From Acidobacteriaceae bacterium (lineage in GTDB: Bacteria > Acidobacteriota > Terriglobia > Terriglobales > Acidobacteriaceae): a stretch of DNA of 58,794 bases. A model generated the notes under the pieces. It was not told the origin of the DNA, made no database searches, and saw nothing but the letters and a program-made list of their open reading frames with translations. The stretch spans positions 1 to 58,794 of the forward strand of contig JASHQQ010000132.1 of assembly GCA_030039035.1 (NCBI GenBank). Reading direction: 5' to 3'. Shown one piece after another: positions 22,226 to 29,035 of the stretch (its first letter is position 1; each line of letters starts with the position of its first letter). The translations under genes were made by a program, and so were the position numbers.

Positions 22226-22288
22226 TGACCGCATCAATTCGCACCATCGTCATGGTTTCCCAGGTCCCAGTACCGATTTATGCGGTCA
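22226..22288. terminator. Inverted repeat spanning the phosphatase stop codon
   Basis: TGACCGCAT (22226-22234) and ATGCGGTCA (22280-22288) are perfect 9-bp arms. The right arm covers the last codons of the minus-strand phosphatase gene. It lies in the gap between convergent genes, so it could end either transcript, but the 45-base spacer is long and there is no T-tract. Confidence 0.3.
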
Positions 22289-23351
22289 CAGGCCTGGATC
22301 CGCGACTGGAGAATCCTTTTCGGGCGAGGGCCAACCGCTTTTCGAAGGAATGAAGCACCGTCGCATCCCTGCCGATATGCCGGACCAGCACGGAATCCTG
22401 GCGTATCTCCAGGTCCGTGAAACCCAGCGCCCGCGCGCCAAATGGCCCTCGGCGCCCGGGCGGTGTTCTCCAGCCGACCAGTTCCGCTCCTCCGCCCCCG
22501 GAAACGACGAACGACGTGGGACGGTTCTCGAACTCGAGGTGTTGCAGATCGTGATCGTGACCCGAGATGTAAAAAGCAATCCGGTGTTCGGTCAGGAGCC
22601 TGCCCCATCTGGAAATGAGAATCGGGTTATCGCCGTGCATGCCATTTGTATAAAGAGGATGGTGGGCAACAAAAGCGAGAAGCTGGCCTGGCCGGTCCTT
22701 CCCAAGCTCACCCTGCAGCCATTCATCCTGGGCATTCGCCTCTGCCCGGCTCATTTCGAAGCTCCAGGGCCGGATGAAGTCCATGGACTTGGTTCCGGGA
22801 AGATTCGAATCCAGGCAGAAGAATGTCATCACAGGATCGTTTGAAGGGAATGAAACGGTGTACCACCGGGCAGGCATGCGCCATCGGCTGCTCCCGGCCT
22901 TTGCATAGGCAAGCTCGGCCTCTACCTTGTTTCCGAAGAATCTCTCGTAGTCATGGTTTCCGAGGACGGCGTATGCCGGGCCCGGAAAAACCGATGCGGG
23001 ATACATCTCCTCAAACTGCCGGTTCCACCGGTGCGATTGGACTCCGCCTCGCATCGGGCCGTAGAAGTTATCTCCGAGCATCATGAGTGCGTCGATCTTC
23101 AGGCGATGAAGTCCCACCCAGCGGCGCATCGCTTCAGCTACGGCCGTTTGCTGTCCGGGAAGAGTGTTGGTTCCCCAATCGCCAAGCATCAGGATGTGCC
23201 TGGCTTCCGGATCCGGACTGCAATCGACCGTCGAAGCAAATATGGACGAAATGCCGCCGTTCAGAACGGCCGCCGCGGAGAAAGCAACCGTCTGTTTGAG
23301 GAACGAACGCCGTGTTATTTTATGCGTCCGGCTTTGTCGGGGTGTATCCAT
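22278..23351 (-). CDS. Tat-exported metallophosphoesterase (acid-phosphatase type)
   Basis: This 357-residue enzyme starts with a twin-arginine signal, TRRSFLKQ at about 13-20, followed by a hydrophobic stretch to about residue 41. Calcineurin-like phosphoesterase motifs follow in order: GDWG, GDNFYG, GNHDYE, VAHHPLY and GHDHD. This set matches tartrate-resistant (type 5) acid phosphatases with a binuclear metal site. It should act outside the cytoplasm on phosphomonoesters or phosphoproteins. It is the last gene of a five-gene minus-strand operon and lies 24 bp after a secreted kinase-like gene, a context that suggests opposing activities. Confidence 0.88.
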   Translation of the reverse strand: MDTPRQSRTHKITRRSFLKQTVAFSAAAVLNGGISSIFASTVDCSPDPEARHILMLGDWGTNTLPGQQTAVAEAMRRWVGLHRLKIDALMMLGDNFYGPMRGGVQSHRWNRQFEEMYPASVFPGPAYAVLGNHDYERFFGNKVEAELAYAKAGSSRWRMPARWYTVSFPSNDPVMTFFCLDSNLPGTKSMDFIRPWSFEMSRAEANAQDEWLQGELGKDRPGQLLAFVAHHPLYTNGMHGDNPILISRWGRLLTEHRIAFYISGHDHDLQHLEFENRPTSFVVSGGGGAELVGWRTPPGRRGPFGARALGFTDLEIRQDSVLVRHIGRDATVLHSFEKRLALARKGFSSRGSRPVTA

Positions 23352-23375
23352 CCGGATTCTGATTCGTTGCGTCCG

Positions 23376-25013
23376 TCAACCCGCCATCCGGGACGAGGTT
23401 CTCTCAAGACCGACCAGGACCCAGCTATCGGCCCTGCGGACAAAGTACACAGTCACACTCCGGTGAGGCGTATCGGGAGCTGTGACGGTGCATCCGACAT
23501 ACGCTCCCTCCGTGGCGGCAAGAATCCCGGCAGGAACCCTGGCGTCGTCTGTGCCGTCGTCGGCGAAAGACCGATTGGTCGCATTGTCGAATCGGAACCA
23601 GTCGAAGCGATAGGCGCGCCGGGCTGAGACTCCCGACCGGGCGCCGATATCCGTGAATTCCAGCCGATCGCCGTCGATCGCAAAACCCTCCAGGGGAAGC
23701 ACCTTGCCGTACCATGCGCGGCCGATCGCGTCCCGCCTCTCCTCAAGAACTTTCGCGATGTATTCGGTCACCGCGGGATTGCTGAACTGCCCCTCTTCGA
23801 CGATCGCATGAATCTGGGCGTCGGAAAACTCCATCACTCGTTTTGCCGCCCAATAGCCATCCCCGTCCTGGAGCGCCTGAAATGCCGGATTGGGATAGTT
23901 CGGCCGCCACGTGAGAGGGTCGAATCCCACCGCGGTGAAGTTTCCGACGGCTGGAAGCTCCTTGGGGTAGCGAACCGTCTCCCACTTCACCGGTTTCAGG
24001 CCAAAAGTCAGGGCCCGATCTTTTTGTTCACGGCTGTCGGGGAGAATGTCCTCCTGACCGTGGCGAGGATCCTTGGCGATATCGCTGTCGCTCCCGAAAG
24101 AATCCCCGAAGTCGAGAAGAAAATGTTCAAATCGGGCGTCGGAGTCCGTGCCCACAACCGTGTCGAGGCTATTCTCGCCCTTGGCATCGGTATGGTTGAG
24201 CCACGCGAAGATGACTCCAAGGCCCCGCAGGTCGCGACGCTGCTGGTGTGGAACCAGATCGTTGGGATCGTCGCCACGAACGCCTGAATAACGGAAGGGA
24301 CCAACGATCTTTCCCGGAATGCTCAAGCTGCCCATGAATCTCAGCCGGCCATCCCTGGTATGTGGAACCGCATCGAGGATCCTGTCCAACTGATCCTTGG
24401 TCATCCGATGCTCTTTGCCTGAGAGCCCCGTGATGGTCGCCTTCCCGGAGAGCTGGATATCTTCTCTCCTGGCGTAAAAGATGTAGTTCTCCGGAACGTT
24501 ATACCCGATTGCGTAGAGAAAGAGTGGAGCGACGACGTCCGCGGCAGAGGCCATCTCGGGATTCGAGGGCGGGTCGACCTTGACGAAAAACAGGATGTTT
24601 CTGGCATCGCGCATCCTGAAGCCCGGCGTCACGCCTTCCGTCTTTGCGGCGACAACGGTGAATGGCGGCTGCGGCCCTCCGTGCGTCCTCGCCCCGCGCT
24701 TCAGTTCCGCGATGGTCATCTCCGGAACCGGTTTCCTGTTGGTGAACCAGCTCGAGTCCGGCACTTCGCCAAGGCTGTTGATTGCCAGACTCGGCGTGGC
24801 GGGAGGCGTTTTGTATTTGACGGAATGAGCGATGAAGTCGTAGAGCGGATTGATCGACTGCTCTCCTGCATGCGGCACCGGCTCGACTTCGGGGACCCTC
24901 CAGAGAGGATCGTCGGGCGCAAATCGCTGCGCCAACGCTGCCGACGGACCCAGCAGGAGAACTCCTAGAAGATACGGGACAGTTTGCTGAAGCTTCCGTT
25001 GAAGACGAACCAT
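23376..25013 (-). CDS. Exported protein with protein-kinase-like catalytic motifs
   Basis: The product (545 aa) has a Sec signal peptide (about 1-29, cleavage near ALAQ). I know no named family for it. Several motifs are arranged as in the kinase-like fold shared by HipA, CotH and Fam20C. These are Lys145 in FFVKVDP, Glu153 followed by a helix and IGYNVPEN (about 151-176), a catalytic-loop-like N-H-T-D276-A-K278-G-E-N281, and a metal-site-like LLD301FGDSFG. A phosphotransferase activity is inferred, not shown. The start codon overlaps the upstream barrel gene by 49 bases, so translation is probably coupled. A phosphatase gene follows directly. The alternative is a pseudo-enzyme or a binding protein. 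Confidence 0.6.
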   Translation of the reverse strand: MVRLQRKLQQTVPYLLGVLLLGPSAALAQRFAPDDPLWRVPEVEPVPHAGEQSINPLYDFIAHSVKYKTPPATPSLAINSLGEVPDSSWFTNRKPVPEMTIAELKRGARTHGGPQPPFTVVAAKTEGVTPGFRMRDARNILFFVKVDPPSNPEMASAADVVAPLFLYAIGYNVPENYIFYARREDIQLSGKATITGLSGKEHRMTKDQLDRILDAVPHTRDGRLRFMGSLSIPGKIVGPFRYSGVRGDDPNDLVPHQQRRDLRGLGVIFAWLNHTDAKGENSLDTVVGTDSDARFEHFLLDFGDSFGSDSDIAKDPRHGQEDILPDSREQKDRALTFGLKPVKWETVRYPKELPAVGNFTAVGFDPLTWRPNYPNPAFQALQDGDGYWAAKRVMEFSDAQIHAIVEEGQFSNPAVTEYIAKVLEERRDAIGRAWYGKVLPLEGFAIDGDRLEFTDIGARSGVSARRAYRFDWFRFDNATNRSFADDGTDDARVPAGILAATEGAYVGCTVTAPDTPHRSVTVYFVRRADSWVLVGLERTSSRMAG

Positions 25014-26230
25014 ACTCTGACCCCCTCCGGTGAGAATCCGACATCACAGCGCATCACTGTAGCCTGCTTGTTCTTGAAACGAATTCCGAATCCGCCATCG
25101 GCGCGCAGATCGCGCAGCCCGATCAGGCCAGCTCGCTGATATACATTGCCGCCGTCGCCAAACAACGCCAGTTCCAGGGCCTGCGAAACCGGCCAGCGAT
25201 ACTCGCCGCTCAGCACGGAGCTGCCGTTGTCGTAGAAGCGATAGCGCTCATAGCCGCGAAGGTCGTCCGGCCCTCCGAGCGTTGGCTGCAGATAAAACGG
25301 GACCTGCTGATCCGCACCGTGAAACGTGGTTTCGTTGCGGGCACGAAATGCAAGAGTGCGCATCCCGTTCCAGAACGGCACATAATAGGTCGCCTGCGTT
25401 TGCAGCAGATGGAACGACGCATTGTTGCCGCTCCGGTCCCAGAACTGCGAATCGTCGGCCTCGAGCTCGAGGCCCGAGGGACTGTCGTAACTGGGCCTGG
25501 TCAGATCGAGGTCGACGATCGAAGTACCGACAACGAAGTTGGACTGCTTGGCGAGCCCGGGTGTATTTGCAGGCGTATAGATGTTGCCGGTCGAAGGCCA
25601 GTCGCCCAGGTCGCCCGGACCCACATGGACAAGCAGGCCGCCAACGGAATAACCGGTTGTGAGCTTCTGCCCGAAGAAGTGGGTCAGGCCGTCGGCATGG
25701 GTCGTCGTGAATTCGCGCCGAAAATCGCTGCGGCCGTCCTTGCTGGAATCCGGCCCCTCGCCGTAGTAAGGCATTGACGCCGCGTTCTGGTAGCCGCCAT
25801 CCACTTTTGTCTCGAAGTGGCCGTTGAAGAGATCGGCGAAATTGAAGGAGGTCGACGCTCCGTACCACTTCTTCGTCGACCCGACCGCATTGGCGTCAAT
25901 CGTGAGGTGCTCGTCGAGCAGGCCGCGGCGAACATACTGGGGACCCAGCGAGAAGCCCGCGCCGGTCGGCAATCCGCCCATCAGGACGCCGAAGGGGTTG
26001 GGATTGAAGATCGGGTCAAGGTAGTGATGTTCGACATGATCGAATTCCTGCTCTCCGTGCGGCGGGGCGACCGCCGTGAGATGCTTTGCCTTGACGTGCT
26101 CCGCGGATTCGATCGCTTCGGCCCGGGAAAGCGCGCCCGGCTGACCGGGCGTGAATTGGGCTTTGGCTGGCCGGCTGAAGCAAGCCAACGCAGCCGCCGT
26201 GACTGCGAGCATTCGCACTGGAGAGTTCAT
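24965..26230 (-). CDS. Outer-membrane beta-barrel protein (surface-antigen D15-like)
   Basis: The protein has 421 residues, with a signal peptide (about 1-24, ending PAKAQ), a short linker rich in His, and a barrel with alternating hydrophobic strands. The C-terminal half has GPDDLRGYERYRFYDN and ends SFSKLSRIF, both typical of Omp85/D15-type surface antigens. No POTRA repeats are visible, so it is closer to short single-barrel members than to BamA. The start at 26230 follows GGAG at 9 bases; the frame stays open 68 codons higher. It sits between the nucleotide-carrier-like genes and the kinase-like gene, whose start it overlaps. Confidence 0.75.
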   Translation of the reverse strand: MNSPVRMLAVTAAALACFSRPAKAQFTPGQPGALSRAEAIESAEHVKAKHLTAVAPPHGEQEFDHVEHHYLDPIFNPNPFGVLMGGLPTGAGFSLGPQYVRRGLLDEHLTIDANAVGSTKKWYGASTSFNFADLFNGHFETKVDGGYQNAASMPYYGEGPDSSKDGRSDFRREFTTTHADGLTHFFGQKLTTGYSVGGLLVHVGPGDLGDWPSTGNIYTPANTPGLAKQSNFVVGTSIVDLDLTRPSYDSPSGLELEADDSQFWDRSGNNASFHLLQTQATYYVPFWNGMRTLAFRARNETTFHGADQQVPFYLQPTLGGPDDLRGYERYRFYDNGSSVLSGEYRWPVSQALELALFGDGGNVYQRAGLIGLRDLRADGGFGIRFKNKQATVMRCDVGFSPEGVRVWFVFNGSFSKLSRIF

Positions 26231-26298
26231 GTTCTTTTGCTCCAATCCACTTTTGCGTGAGCCCGAAACTGCTTCCCTTCGGGAGCGGCACGCACGAT

Positions 26299-27597
26299 TC
26301 AAGCCAGCACTGCTCCTTCGCGCGCCGTCCGGTGCAGGGGCACCGTTCCCGCACGTTTCTTCACCGAGCCGAAGGCCCTGGCCAACTGGTCCACGCGGTG
26401 CAGAAGCAGCCGCGAAAGACCCCACAATGCGCATCCGAGCAGGCTGAAGATCAGCAACGACCAGCGATAGCCGAGCTGGGAACCGCCCATCAGAAGCAGG
26501 GCCAGCAGACCCGCGGCGATCAGGTCTCCGATTCGCTCACCCACGACGTCGATCAGCGGCCGGGCTTCGACGCGCAAATTGTCGGGCATGACAGCATAGA
26601 CCATCTCCACGCCGCATCGGAAGACCGAATTCCTCAACGAATACTCACCCGCCCGGAGAACGGCGAGGATCGGGAAAACGGGCAGGATCATTCCCAACGA
26701 GGCGGCGATCGTCATCGTCATCGGGTGAAGCGTTAGGCCGGCCCTGGCAAGCTTCGACGTTCCGTTATTCTGGAGCGCGAGCTGGCCAAGGAGCGATCCG
26801 AGGCTGAGCAGGCCCTGAAAAAGCCCTAGAAAATGAAGTCGCGCGGCCTGTTCGGTGAAATGCTCCGCGGCGCCCACCCGGAAGACCAGATCGAGGAGCG
26901 TCGAGGCCGAGGCGCCGATGACGGTCACCGCGGCGAACGTGCGGATGACCGGGCTGGTCCAGTGCCTGAGAGCCTTCTCGACCTCTGCGCGAATCGGCGG
27001 CGGCGCCTCCGTGCTGCAGTAGCTGTTTCGATAGAGCAGCAGCGTGAGCACCACGGCGATATTGATCGACGCGAGGATAAGATTGGCGACCCGGAAGTTC
27101 GCGGCCGAGGGCAGATGAACCAGCCCGAAGCCGGCAAACAATCCCGCCGAGGTTCCACAGATCAGGATCGAGGGAACCTTGCCTGTATCTCTCCCGCCGC
27201 ACTTGCTCATCCAGTCGCCGATCAGGACCCAGATGAGAGAAAGCCCCAGGGCAGTCGATGCGGACACTTCGATGTAGTAGCCGCTGTACATCCAGGGTTG
27301 GGACTTGTATCCGAAGGCAAAGATCGTCTCGCAGATCGCGTTGATGGCATAAAACGCGCGGATCACGCGGATGCGCTGCTCGGTCCGGAAGAAGAACGAG
27401 AGCAGGAGGCTGATGGTGATGGCCAGGAGCGTTCCGATCAGCGTGAGGCCCGGCAATGCAGTGACCGCCAGATGCGATCCGAGCAGGGAGTCGCGGAACG
27501 CCCGGCTGAAGACATAGTGCAACATCAGCAGCGCGTAGGCGAGGATCAGAAGCGGCAGGGCGCCTGTGGCCGGCGCGATGGATATTCTGTTTGCCAT
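26299..27597 (-). CDS. Npt/TLC-type nucleotide-carrier-like membrane protein B
   Basis: This polytopic membrane protein has 432 residues and about eleven to twelve helices. It shares a layout with its upstream neighbour, including the segment GEYSLRNSVFRCGVEMVYAVMPDNLR...IDVVGERIGD. That segment corresponds to the conserved late region of ADP/ATP-type (TLC, Npt1/Npt2) carriers. Similarity to the classical carriers is weaker than in the upstream gene, so a general MFS assignment is possible. The start is ATG 27597, the only good in-frame choice after the upstream gene; GGAGGG is 14 bases away. It follows the first carrier by 49 bp. Confidence 0.6.
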   Translation of the reverse strand: MANRISIAPATGALPLLILAYALLMLHYVFSRAFRDSLLGSHLAVTALPGLTLIGTLLAITISLLLSFFFRTEQRIRVIRAFYAINAICETIFAFGYKSQPWMYSGYYIEVSASTALGLSLIWVLIGDWMSKCGGRDTGKVPSILICGTSAGLFAGFGLVHLPSAANFRVANLILASINIAVVLTLLLYRNSYCSTEAPPPIRAEVEKALRHWTSPVIRTFAAVTVIGASASTLLDLVFRVGAAEHFTEQAARLHFLGLFQGLLSLGSLLGQLALQNNGTSKLARAGLTLHPMTMTIAASLGMILPVFPILAVLRAGEYSLRNSVFRCGVEMVYAVMPDNLRVEARPLIDVVGERIGDLIAAGLLALLLMGGSQLGYRWSLLIFSLLGCALWGLSRLLLHRVDQLARAFGSVKKRAGTVPLHRTAREGAVLA

Positions 27598-27646
27598 TTC
27601 GACTGCTGCATCCCTCCGGAAAATGTCCTCGGCGTAAACCCGCCCT

Positions 27647-29035
27647 CTAACACAGCTCGGGTGAAAGGCGACGGTGCTCCTGGAACAGACGAAATGCCAC
27701 GTAGAGCCAGGCCAGGGTGATTCCCAGCGTGACAGTCGCGAACGAACGCACTGAAAACTGGAGTTCTGCGCCAAGGAAGATCACGCCTGCCTGCAGCACA
27801 TCTCCGAACCGCCAGCAGAAAGTCTCGATCGCGGCCTTTGCCTTGTACTTCGCCTCGCGGGAGGTGGGAAGGAAAAGGGCGTTGCGCACGGTGTTCTGCA
27901 GCGAGTAGTTGGTTGAGTTTTCCACGATCTTGAAGACACGGACCACACCGAGCAGGGGGGAAATCAAAATCGAGGTGAAAGTCGCCAGGGAGATCCCGGG
28001 AAGTATGAAGAGCGACGCCCGGATTCCGATCTTCTTGAAAATGCGCGAGACCAGGAACGCCTGGATGGCAAAGCTGACAATGTTCGTCCACTCGTAATAG
28101 GAGGCGTAAAACTCGCCGATATTAGCCTCGCGGGCCTTCATCAGGGAACTCGCTGTGCCAACAACCTCATTGGTGTGATCCACCACAAGCTTTCCCACGA
28201 TAAAGTCGCCCGACAGGCTGACGACGTTGAGCAGGATGGTAAGAATCGCGATCAGCATCAGATAACGATCACGAAGAATGAGCTGGAAGCCGCCATCCTT
28301 GCTGAGCGGAGCAAGATCCTTCTTCTGTTCTTCGGCGCCCGCCTTTTTCGTGATGACCCAGCCGGCAGCCCGAGTGAGAAACGCGCAAAGGCAGAGCATC
28401 AGGGCCGAGAGCCAGAGAATGTTGTAGGGACCCAGCGGAACGATCAGTTTGCCCGCACCCCACGCGCCGGCGACCGCTCCCAGAGAGGCGCCGATACCAA
28501 GTACCGGAAAGAGCCTCTTGCCCTGCGCTTCAGTAAACAGATCGGTCGCAAATGCCCAAAGCTGGGAGACGGCAAAAACGTTGAAGATTCCCACCCAGAC
28601 GAAGTAGGGAACCCCGATCCTGGCTCCGCTCCGGCCAATGAAATAGAACACGATCAGGTTCAGGGCGAAGAAGAGGGTTGTCCAGCGAAGAAGCCTGTTG
28701 CGATTCAGATGCGTTGCGATCCAGCCGTAGACAGGAACGACGCCGAGCAGGATGATGGCCTGGGCGGCCGAAGAATAGGCCTTGACTTCCGCTCCACCTT
28801 CAGCCAGGATCAACGACTCGCGGACCGTCTTCAGCAGGTAATACGCGCCGAGCAACAGGAAGAGGTTGGCGGTGAGAAGAAGGATGCCGGCGCCCTCGCC
28901 CGCCTGAACGTCGCTGACCACGGCGAGAGCGCGTTCAAGCGGATTCTTGAGTGCCGCCGCCGGGGCAGGTGCGGACGAGCCAGCCTTTTCGGGTCCGGAT
29001 TCCAAGCTGGTTGTCGTCAACGCCGCACTCTCCAA
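27647..29035 (-). CDS. Npt/TLC-type nucleotide-carrier-like membrane protein A
   Basis: The product (462 aa) has about twelve helices. The segments LFLLLGAYYLLKTVRESLILAEGGAEVKAYS (about 53-83) and NYSLQNTVRNALFLPTSREAKYKAKAAIETFCWRFGD (about 373-409) are those of Npt1/Npt2 family nucleotide transporters related to plastid and intracellular-parasite ADP/ATP carriers. It probably moves nucleotides or related phosphates across the inner membrane. The first codon is TTG at 29035; a second TTG five codons on is an alternative start with GGAG nine bases before it. It heads the five-gene minus-strand operon ending at 22278. Confidence 0.7.
   Translation of the reverse strand: MESAALTTTSLESGPEKAGSSAPAPAAALKNPLERALAVVSDVQAGEGAGILLLTANLFLLLGAYYLLKTVRESLILAEGGAEVKAYSSAAQAIILLGVVPVYGWIATHLNRNRLLRWTTLFFALNLIVFYFIGRSGARIGVPYFVWVGIFNVFAVSQLWAFATDLFTEAQGKRLFPVLGIGASLGAVAGAWGAGKLIVPLGPYNILWLSALMLCLCAFLTRAAGWVITKKAGAEEQKKDLAPLSKDGGFQLILRDRYLMLIAILTILLNVVSLSGDFIVGKLVVDHTNEVVGTASSLMKAREANIGEFYASYYEWTNIVSFAIQAFLVSRIFKKIGIRASLFILPGISLATFTSILISPLLGVVRVFKIVENSTNYSLQNTVRNALFLPTSREAKYKAKAAIETFCWRFGDVLQAGVIFLGAELQFSVRSFATVTLGITLAWLYVAFRLFQEHRRLSPELC

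Follow-up and report, generated by a model that had tools for sequence, protein, structure and literature searches.

A stretch of 58,794 nucleotides from an Acidobacteriaceae bacterium (GenBank assembly GCA_030039035.1, contig JASHQQ010000132.1; hereafter the window) contains, at positions 22278-29035, a five-gene module in which an exported protein with a kinase-like fold (KIN) is encoded together with two carriers of the NTT/TLC (ATP/ADP carrier) family (TLC1 and TLC2), an outer-membrane barrel (OMP) and a phosphatase (PHO). Genes for KIN and for TLC carriers are strongly associated across Acidobacteriota, and a second exported kinase-like family shows the same association. On balance, we favor the reading that carriers, KIN, barrel and phosphatase constitute an extracytoplasmic phosphorylation module. 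All five open reading frames (ORFs) lie on the minus strand. The first-pass annotation had listed two carrier-like proteins, a barrel, an exported protein with kinase motifs and a Tat-exported phosphatase, and Pfam matches, family profiles and structural models bear out these identities. The tight packing it described is reproduced exactly, with spacings of +49, +68, -49 and +24 bp, if plausible starts are taken for TLC2 (ATG at 27597) and OMP (ATG at 26230).

KIN (23376..25013, minus strand) is a 545-residue protein that gave no useful match by sequence in Pfam, NCBIfam or PDB sequences, and its fold was therefore decided by structure prediction. The AlphaFold model, derived from a 42-sequence alignment, has a pLDDT of 91.2 and a pTM of 0.91. 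Structural superposition locates a two-lobed, kinase-like fold at residues ~111–440, flanked by N- and C-terminal extensions. KIN superposes onto H. pylori CtkA with a Z of 14.9 for 235 residues (4.3 Å) and onto Fam20C with a Z of 14.0 for 261 residues (4.0 Å), followed by type II PI4K (Z 12.7), CotH (Z 12.2), a bacterial Ser/Thr kinase complex (Z 11.7), HipT (Z 11.4) and HipA (Z about 9–11). The kinase-like character suspected in the first-pass annotation thus holds in the predicted structure when compared with Fam20C, CotH and HipA.

The active site comprises four residues, all encoded on the minus strand: the β3-type lysine K145 (24579..24581), the aspartate D276 (24186..24188) and asparagine N281 (24171..24173) of the catalytic loop (LNHTDAKGEN, similar to the NxDxHxxN of HipA), and D301 (24111..24113) of a DFG-like motif (LLDFGDSFG). 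The respective residue is retained in 78, 83, 84 and 85 of 85 homologues, and the complete K/D/N/D set is intact in 76 of the 85 distinct relatives. KIN carries a Sec-type signal sequence; a hydrophobic N-terminal segment is found in 88 of 93 related ORFs, and a lipobox (lipoprotein box) in 8 of the 93. Signal sequence, fold and conserved residues together show KIN to be an exported protein of kinase fold whose active site is intact. We regard the assignment as an exported kinase-fold protein as practically certain, and the model and residue conservation make it highly probable that KIN is an active phosphotransferase.

The Fam20C domain profile (PF06702) matched neither KIN nor any of its 42 relatives, and the CotH family of Pfam did not match KIN. 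The HipA profiles (PF07804, PF20613) left the KIN of the main locus unmatched, with weak HipA_2 matches in 4 of the 42 relatives. A HipA toxin-antitoxin identity was rejected, as KIN is exported, has no antitoxin-like partner and lacks a profile match. A search of IMG/VR returned no KIN relatives and hence no sign that KIN is a phage gene. Tandem duplications of KIN occur at L019:8869-12184 and at L100:1623-6707, the latter with a duplicated barrel. Many Acidobacteriota also encode a distant relative of ~350 residues (L029:9050-10135 and similar) that matches only residues ~80–165 of KIN; the L029 copy has no match in Pfam or NCBIfam.

The link between KIN and the carriers was assessed in 396 Acidobacteriota genomes drawn from across the phylum and scored for full-length KIN and Pfam TLC. 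KIN is present in 61 and TLC in 125; 56 genomes have both, five only KIN and 69 only TLC (odds ratio 43, P 4e-27). Since divergent carriers, TLC2 among them, escape Pfam TLC, the true co-occurrence is probably higher. These P values overstate independence, the genomes being related. However, mere relatedness is argued against by the genus-level test, where TLC is present in 36 of the 40 genera with KIN (P 8e-14), by the second kinase family described below, and by a control of similar prevalence, the cytosolic kinase family HipA_C (86 genomes), which is not associated with TLC (odds ratio 1.2, P 0.51). At the level of loci, 22 of the 44 KIN loci with full flanks have a TLC gene within 4 kb, compared to an estimated ~1% by chance, based on a few carrier genes per ~5 Mb genome. 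Additionally, TLC is present in all six KIN genomes reached outside the lineage of the main locus (two Calditrichota, LCP-89, one labelled Bacteroidota, one further Acidobacteriota and one unassigned).

The five-gene order of the window, whose recurrence the first-pass annotation had proposed to look for, is found identically in the cultured Edaphobacter modestus DSM 18101 (L032) and in a third genome (L083), where the proteins compared are 61–76% identical. Because the order recurs in these two genomes, chance is excluded as the origin of the arrangement. The same gene set also occurs in LCP-89 and in a bacterium not assigned to any phylum (L060, L062). The carriers and the exported protein thus do occur together, as the first-pass annotation had supposed, in 56 of 61 genomes and at 22 of 44 loci, and we are confident that KIN is functionally coupled to the carriers.

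In Acidobacteriota that have carriers but not KIN, the carriers adjoin another exported family, K2, of ~280 residues. Profile searches gave K2 a weak Fam20C match below the cut-off, together with weak matches to PI3/PI4-kinase and HipA_2. Its closest relatives of solved structure are Fam20A, Fam20B and Fam20C, and it is also similar to Fam20B, PI4K and KDO-kinase. The clusters take the form PHO2-K2-TLC-K2-K2, in which PHO2 is an exported calcineurin-type phosphatase, and are often located next to HEAT-fused TLC proteins (L065:2010-8828; also L066, L067, L068, L074 and L075). K2 clusters were first spotted at carrier loci; when all 396 genomes were then searched separately, K2 turned up in 77, every one of which also has TLC (77/77, P 4e-49). 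All 49 K2 genera fall inside the 81 TLC genera (P 2e-26). Thus, the combination of K2, TLC and phosphatase independently repeats the pairing of KIN with carriers.

In several clusters the K2 copy adjacent to PHO2 no longer has the catalytic Asp (e.g. DQCLDQDD in place of NEDRHMNN), while its neighbors keep it. Such copies are encoded at L065:6971-7819, L066:11966-12781, L074:3826-4623, L075:464-1270 and L067:6098-6952. By analogy with Fam20A and Fam20C, the Asp-less and Asp-bearing copies could form pseudokinase/kinase pairs.

TLC is present in 99 of the 104 genomes with KIN or K2, and one or the other family in 99 of the 125 TLC genomes. The remaining 26 carrier genomes have neither, and the few of their TLC loci that were examined (e.g. 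L127 and L128) show no obvious exported kinase. Not every carrier therefore fits the model, and carriers with other roles may exist.

TLC1 (27647..29035, minus strand) is an inner-membrane protein of 462 residues that matches Pfam TLC (PF03219) with 60.8 bits against a cut-off of 21. TLC2 (26299..27597, minus strand) has no match in Pfam or NCBIfam and is recognized as a second carrier-like member only through an iterated family profile, with 337 bits to the TLC1 profile; it occupies the same place in L032 and L083. The profile of the TLC alignment matches the solved ADP,ATP carriers of Chlamydia and Arabidopsis (9j3n, E 3e-51; 9j3j, E 3e-47). Basic residues K27, R30, K131, R132, K354, K358 and R367 are widely kept in this alignment, as is an acidic residue at position 362.

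OMP (24965..26230, minus strand) has a signal peptide and matches Pfam Omp85 (PF01103) with 35.7 bits against a cut-off of 24. Its model (pLDDT 86) is a 16-stranded barrel with a Z of about 26 to TamA, BamA and Sam50. POTRA domains are absent; the ~80 residues before the barrel are predicted, at low confidence, to contain two helices. The LRGY/F motif is conserved, with R328 and G329 invariant. Among the 65 loci with 1.4 kb or more upstream, 63 have the barrel gene immediately next to KIN, and the two exceptions (L048 and L056) hold a barrel too, masked by overextended or fused ORFs. This pair is conserved in 25 families of Acidobacteriota as well as in Calditrichota and LCP-89, and is the most constant partnership, the invariant core of the module. 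From such constant adjacency we suggest that the barrel positions KIN at the outer membrane, where it could present KIN at the surface or assist its assembly, a role that we offer as a guess. A type V secretion pair (TpsB and passenger) was not assigned, given the lack of POTRA domains. At L056:5677-9885, a single frame of 1402 residues runs from a TLC carrier into an Omp85 barrel, and is either a real fusion of inner- and outer-membrane proteins or the product of a stop codon lost in assembly. The Calditrichota genome G535 contains a longer Omp85-like gene between two TLC genes, apart from KIN (L143:1153-3651, L138:1-3906), with an N-terminus that is POTRA-like in appearance.

PHO (22278..23351, minus strand) is a calcineurin-type phosphoesterase with the Tat motif TRRSFLK, matching Metallophos with 63.6 bits against a cut-off of 21.5. 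Among solved structures it is closest to tartrate-resistant purple acid phosphatases of the ACP5/TRAP type (7ov8, E 1.5e-27; 1ute, E 1e-26), and the metal-ligand motifs GDWG, GDN, GNHD and GHDH are present in the translation. An opposing action of the phosphatase on KIN is suggested tentatively.

Scans of the module for promoters and terminators remained at chance level. Nearly all searched congeners lack the module, so that its distribution in the genus of the main locus is patchy. GC content is even over the module (0.59–0.63) and thus gives no compositional sign of recent transfer. The presence of the module in one lineage and not in its congeners may reflect patchy retention or an old transfer.

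From these data we infer a pathway in which the inner-membrane TLC carriers would move nucleotide to the periplasm, most likely ATP out and ADP in. Sec-exported KIN, closely partnered with the POTRA-less barrel, would then phosphorylate an envelope or cell-surface substrate, and the Tat-exported, TRAP-like phosphatase would remove the phosphate or clear by-products. An outward supply of nucleotide by the carriers is probable. In mitochondria, the inside-negative membrane potential favors the exit of ATP for ADP; by analogy, the same inside-negative potential would favor outward supply here.

Several observations weigh against this pathway. Five KIN genomes give no TLC match, but the Pfam profile fails on TLC2 as well; at half of the KIN loci, no carrier is encoded within 4 kb; and TLC2, 17% identical to TLC1, is very divergent. 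The critical charged residues of plant AtNTT1, which we take to be K155, E245, E385 and K527, appear mostly not to be kept: in a remote profile alignment, K155, E245 and K527 seem not to be retained and E385 to be replaced by Asp. The transported substrate may therefore be other than the ATP/ADP of the characterized NTTs. K145 is absent in 7 of 85 KIN relatives, so that some members of the family may be pseudokinases. ATP, at its size, could leak out through general porins. Finally, no member is less constant than the phosphatase, which lies near KIN in only 12 of 44 loci and may be optional. Of the module as initially proposed, the kinase fold and the co-occurrence with carriers stand; its invariant core is the barrel and KIN, to which carriers are commonly and the phosphatase less often added.

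The most serious alternative, though a rather unlikely one, accepts the coupling but has the carriers move another phosphorylated metabolite, such as NAD or a sugar phosphate, with KIN using another donor or catalyzing another reaction (AMPylation, glutamylation, or phosphorylation of a sugar or lipid) with a glycan or lipid of the envelope as substrate. The apparently incomplete set of NTT charged residues is consistent with this, as are the lipid and sugar kinases among the structural and profile matches (type II PI4K, Z 12.7, for KIN; Fam20B, PI4K and KDO-kinase for K2) and the precedent of Protochlamydia NTT4, a carrier of NAD (PMC5381601). However, the nearest solved carriers are ATP/ADP exchangers, and the K/D/N/D set of a kinase is retained. 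Nucleotide scavenging, in which phosphatase and barrel would handle extracellular nucleotides for import by the carriers and KIN would be a periplasmic nucleotide-binding or phosphate-sensing pseudoenzyme, would agree with the nucleotide import by parasite NTTs (PMC5381601) and with the broad phosphoesterase group to which the phosphatase belongs. We consider it improbable, as KIN retains its catalytic residues, the phosphatase is the gene most often missing, the barrel goes with KIN and not with the carriers, and a second exported kinase family has the same carrier link. Co-inheritance without function, by shared ancestry or hitch-hiking of carriers and kinases, could draw on the inflation of P values by related genomes and on the patchiness of the module in its genus, but is largely refuted, and most improbable, in view of the association at genus level for both kinase families and across phyla, the differing gene orders and the unassociated HipA control.

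The proposed phosphorylation module resembles several known systems in part. Fam20C and other Fam20 kinases of the animal secretory pathway share the kinase-like fold with KIN and act outside the cytosol, and therefore need nucleotide imported into that compartment; the pairing of active Fam20C with the pseudokinase Fam20A resembles the K2 copies. In contrast, KIN lacks a Pfam Fam20C match, is bacterial and shares an operon with NTT carriers and an Omp85 barrel, and a comparable bacterial system does not figure in a review of Fam20 (PMC7948968). HipA/HipT and CtkA are the nearest folds and share the NxDxxxxN motif and the D spacing with KIN; however, HipA and HipT are cytosolic toxins, whereas KIN is exported, larger and has no antitoxin, and HipA does not track TLC. 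CotH, which is similar to KIN in fold, works inside the sporulating mother cell, where it requires no carrier, and lacks a partner barrel. It is an atypical kinase of the Bacillus spore coat that acts on envelope (coat) proteins (PMC12189002). TLC1 belongs to the same family as the NTT carriers of Chlamydia, Rickettsia and plastids, but differs from them in its free-living host, its operon with an exported kinase, some charged residues that appear not to be kept and the proposed outward direction. OMP shares the barrel and the RGF/Y loop motif with TamA and BamA, but has no POTRA domains and is genetically tied to KIN. PHO shares sequence and metal-ligand motifs with tartrate-resistant acid phosphatase, but is bacterial, Tat-exported and part of a kinase operon. 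No description of exported kinases linked to NTT carriers was found in the open-licence literature (subscription papers and preprints lay outside the search), in agreement with the earlier statement that no described bacterial system of this composition is known.

We know of no ATP supply in the periplasm or at the cell surface, and protein phosphorylation there is therefore unexpected. NTT, NTT-HEAT and NTT-HEAT-cNBD proteins, for their part, are widespread in free-living bacteria, where their purpose has been left open (Major et al. 2017, PMC5381601). The evidence is evenly poised on the wider proposal that NTT carriers of free-living Acidobacteriota, Calditrichota and related bacteria would mainly serve to export ATP to at least two different families of exported kinases with paired exported phosphatases, in analogy with the Fam20 system of the animal secretory pathway. 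If carriers do feed exported kinases, both puzzles would be answered, and a layer of regulation at the envelope or cell surface would become testable, for which the cultured strain E. modestus DSM 18101 holds the whole five-gene set.

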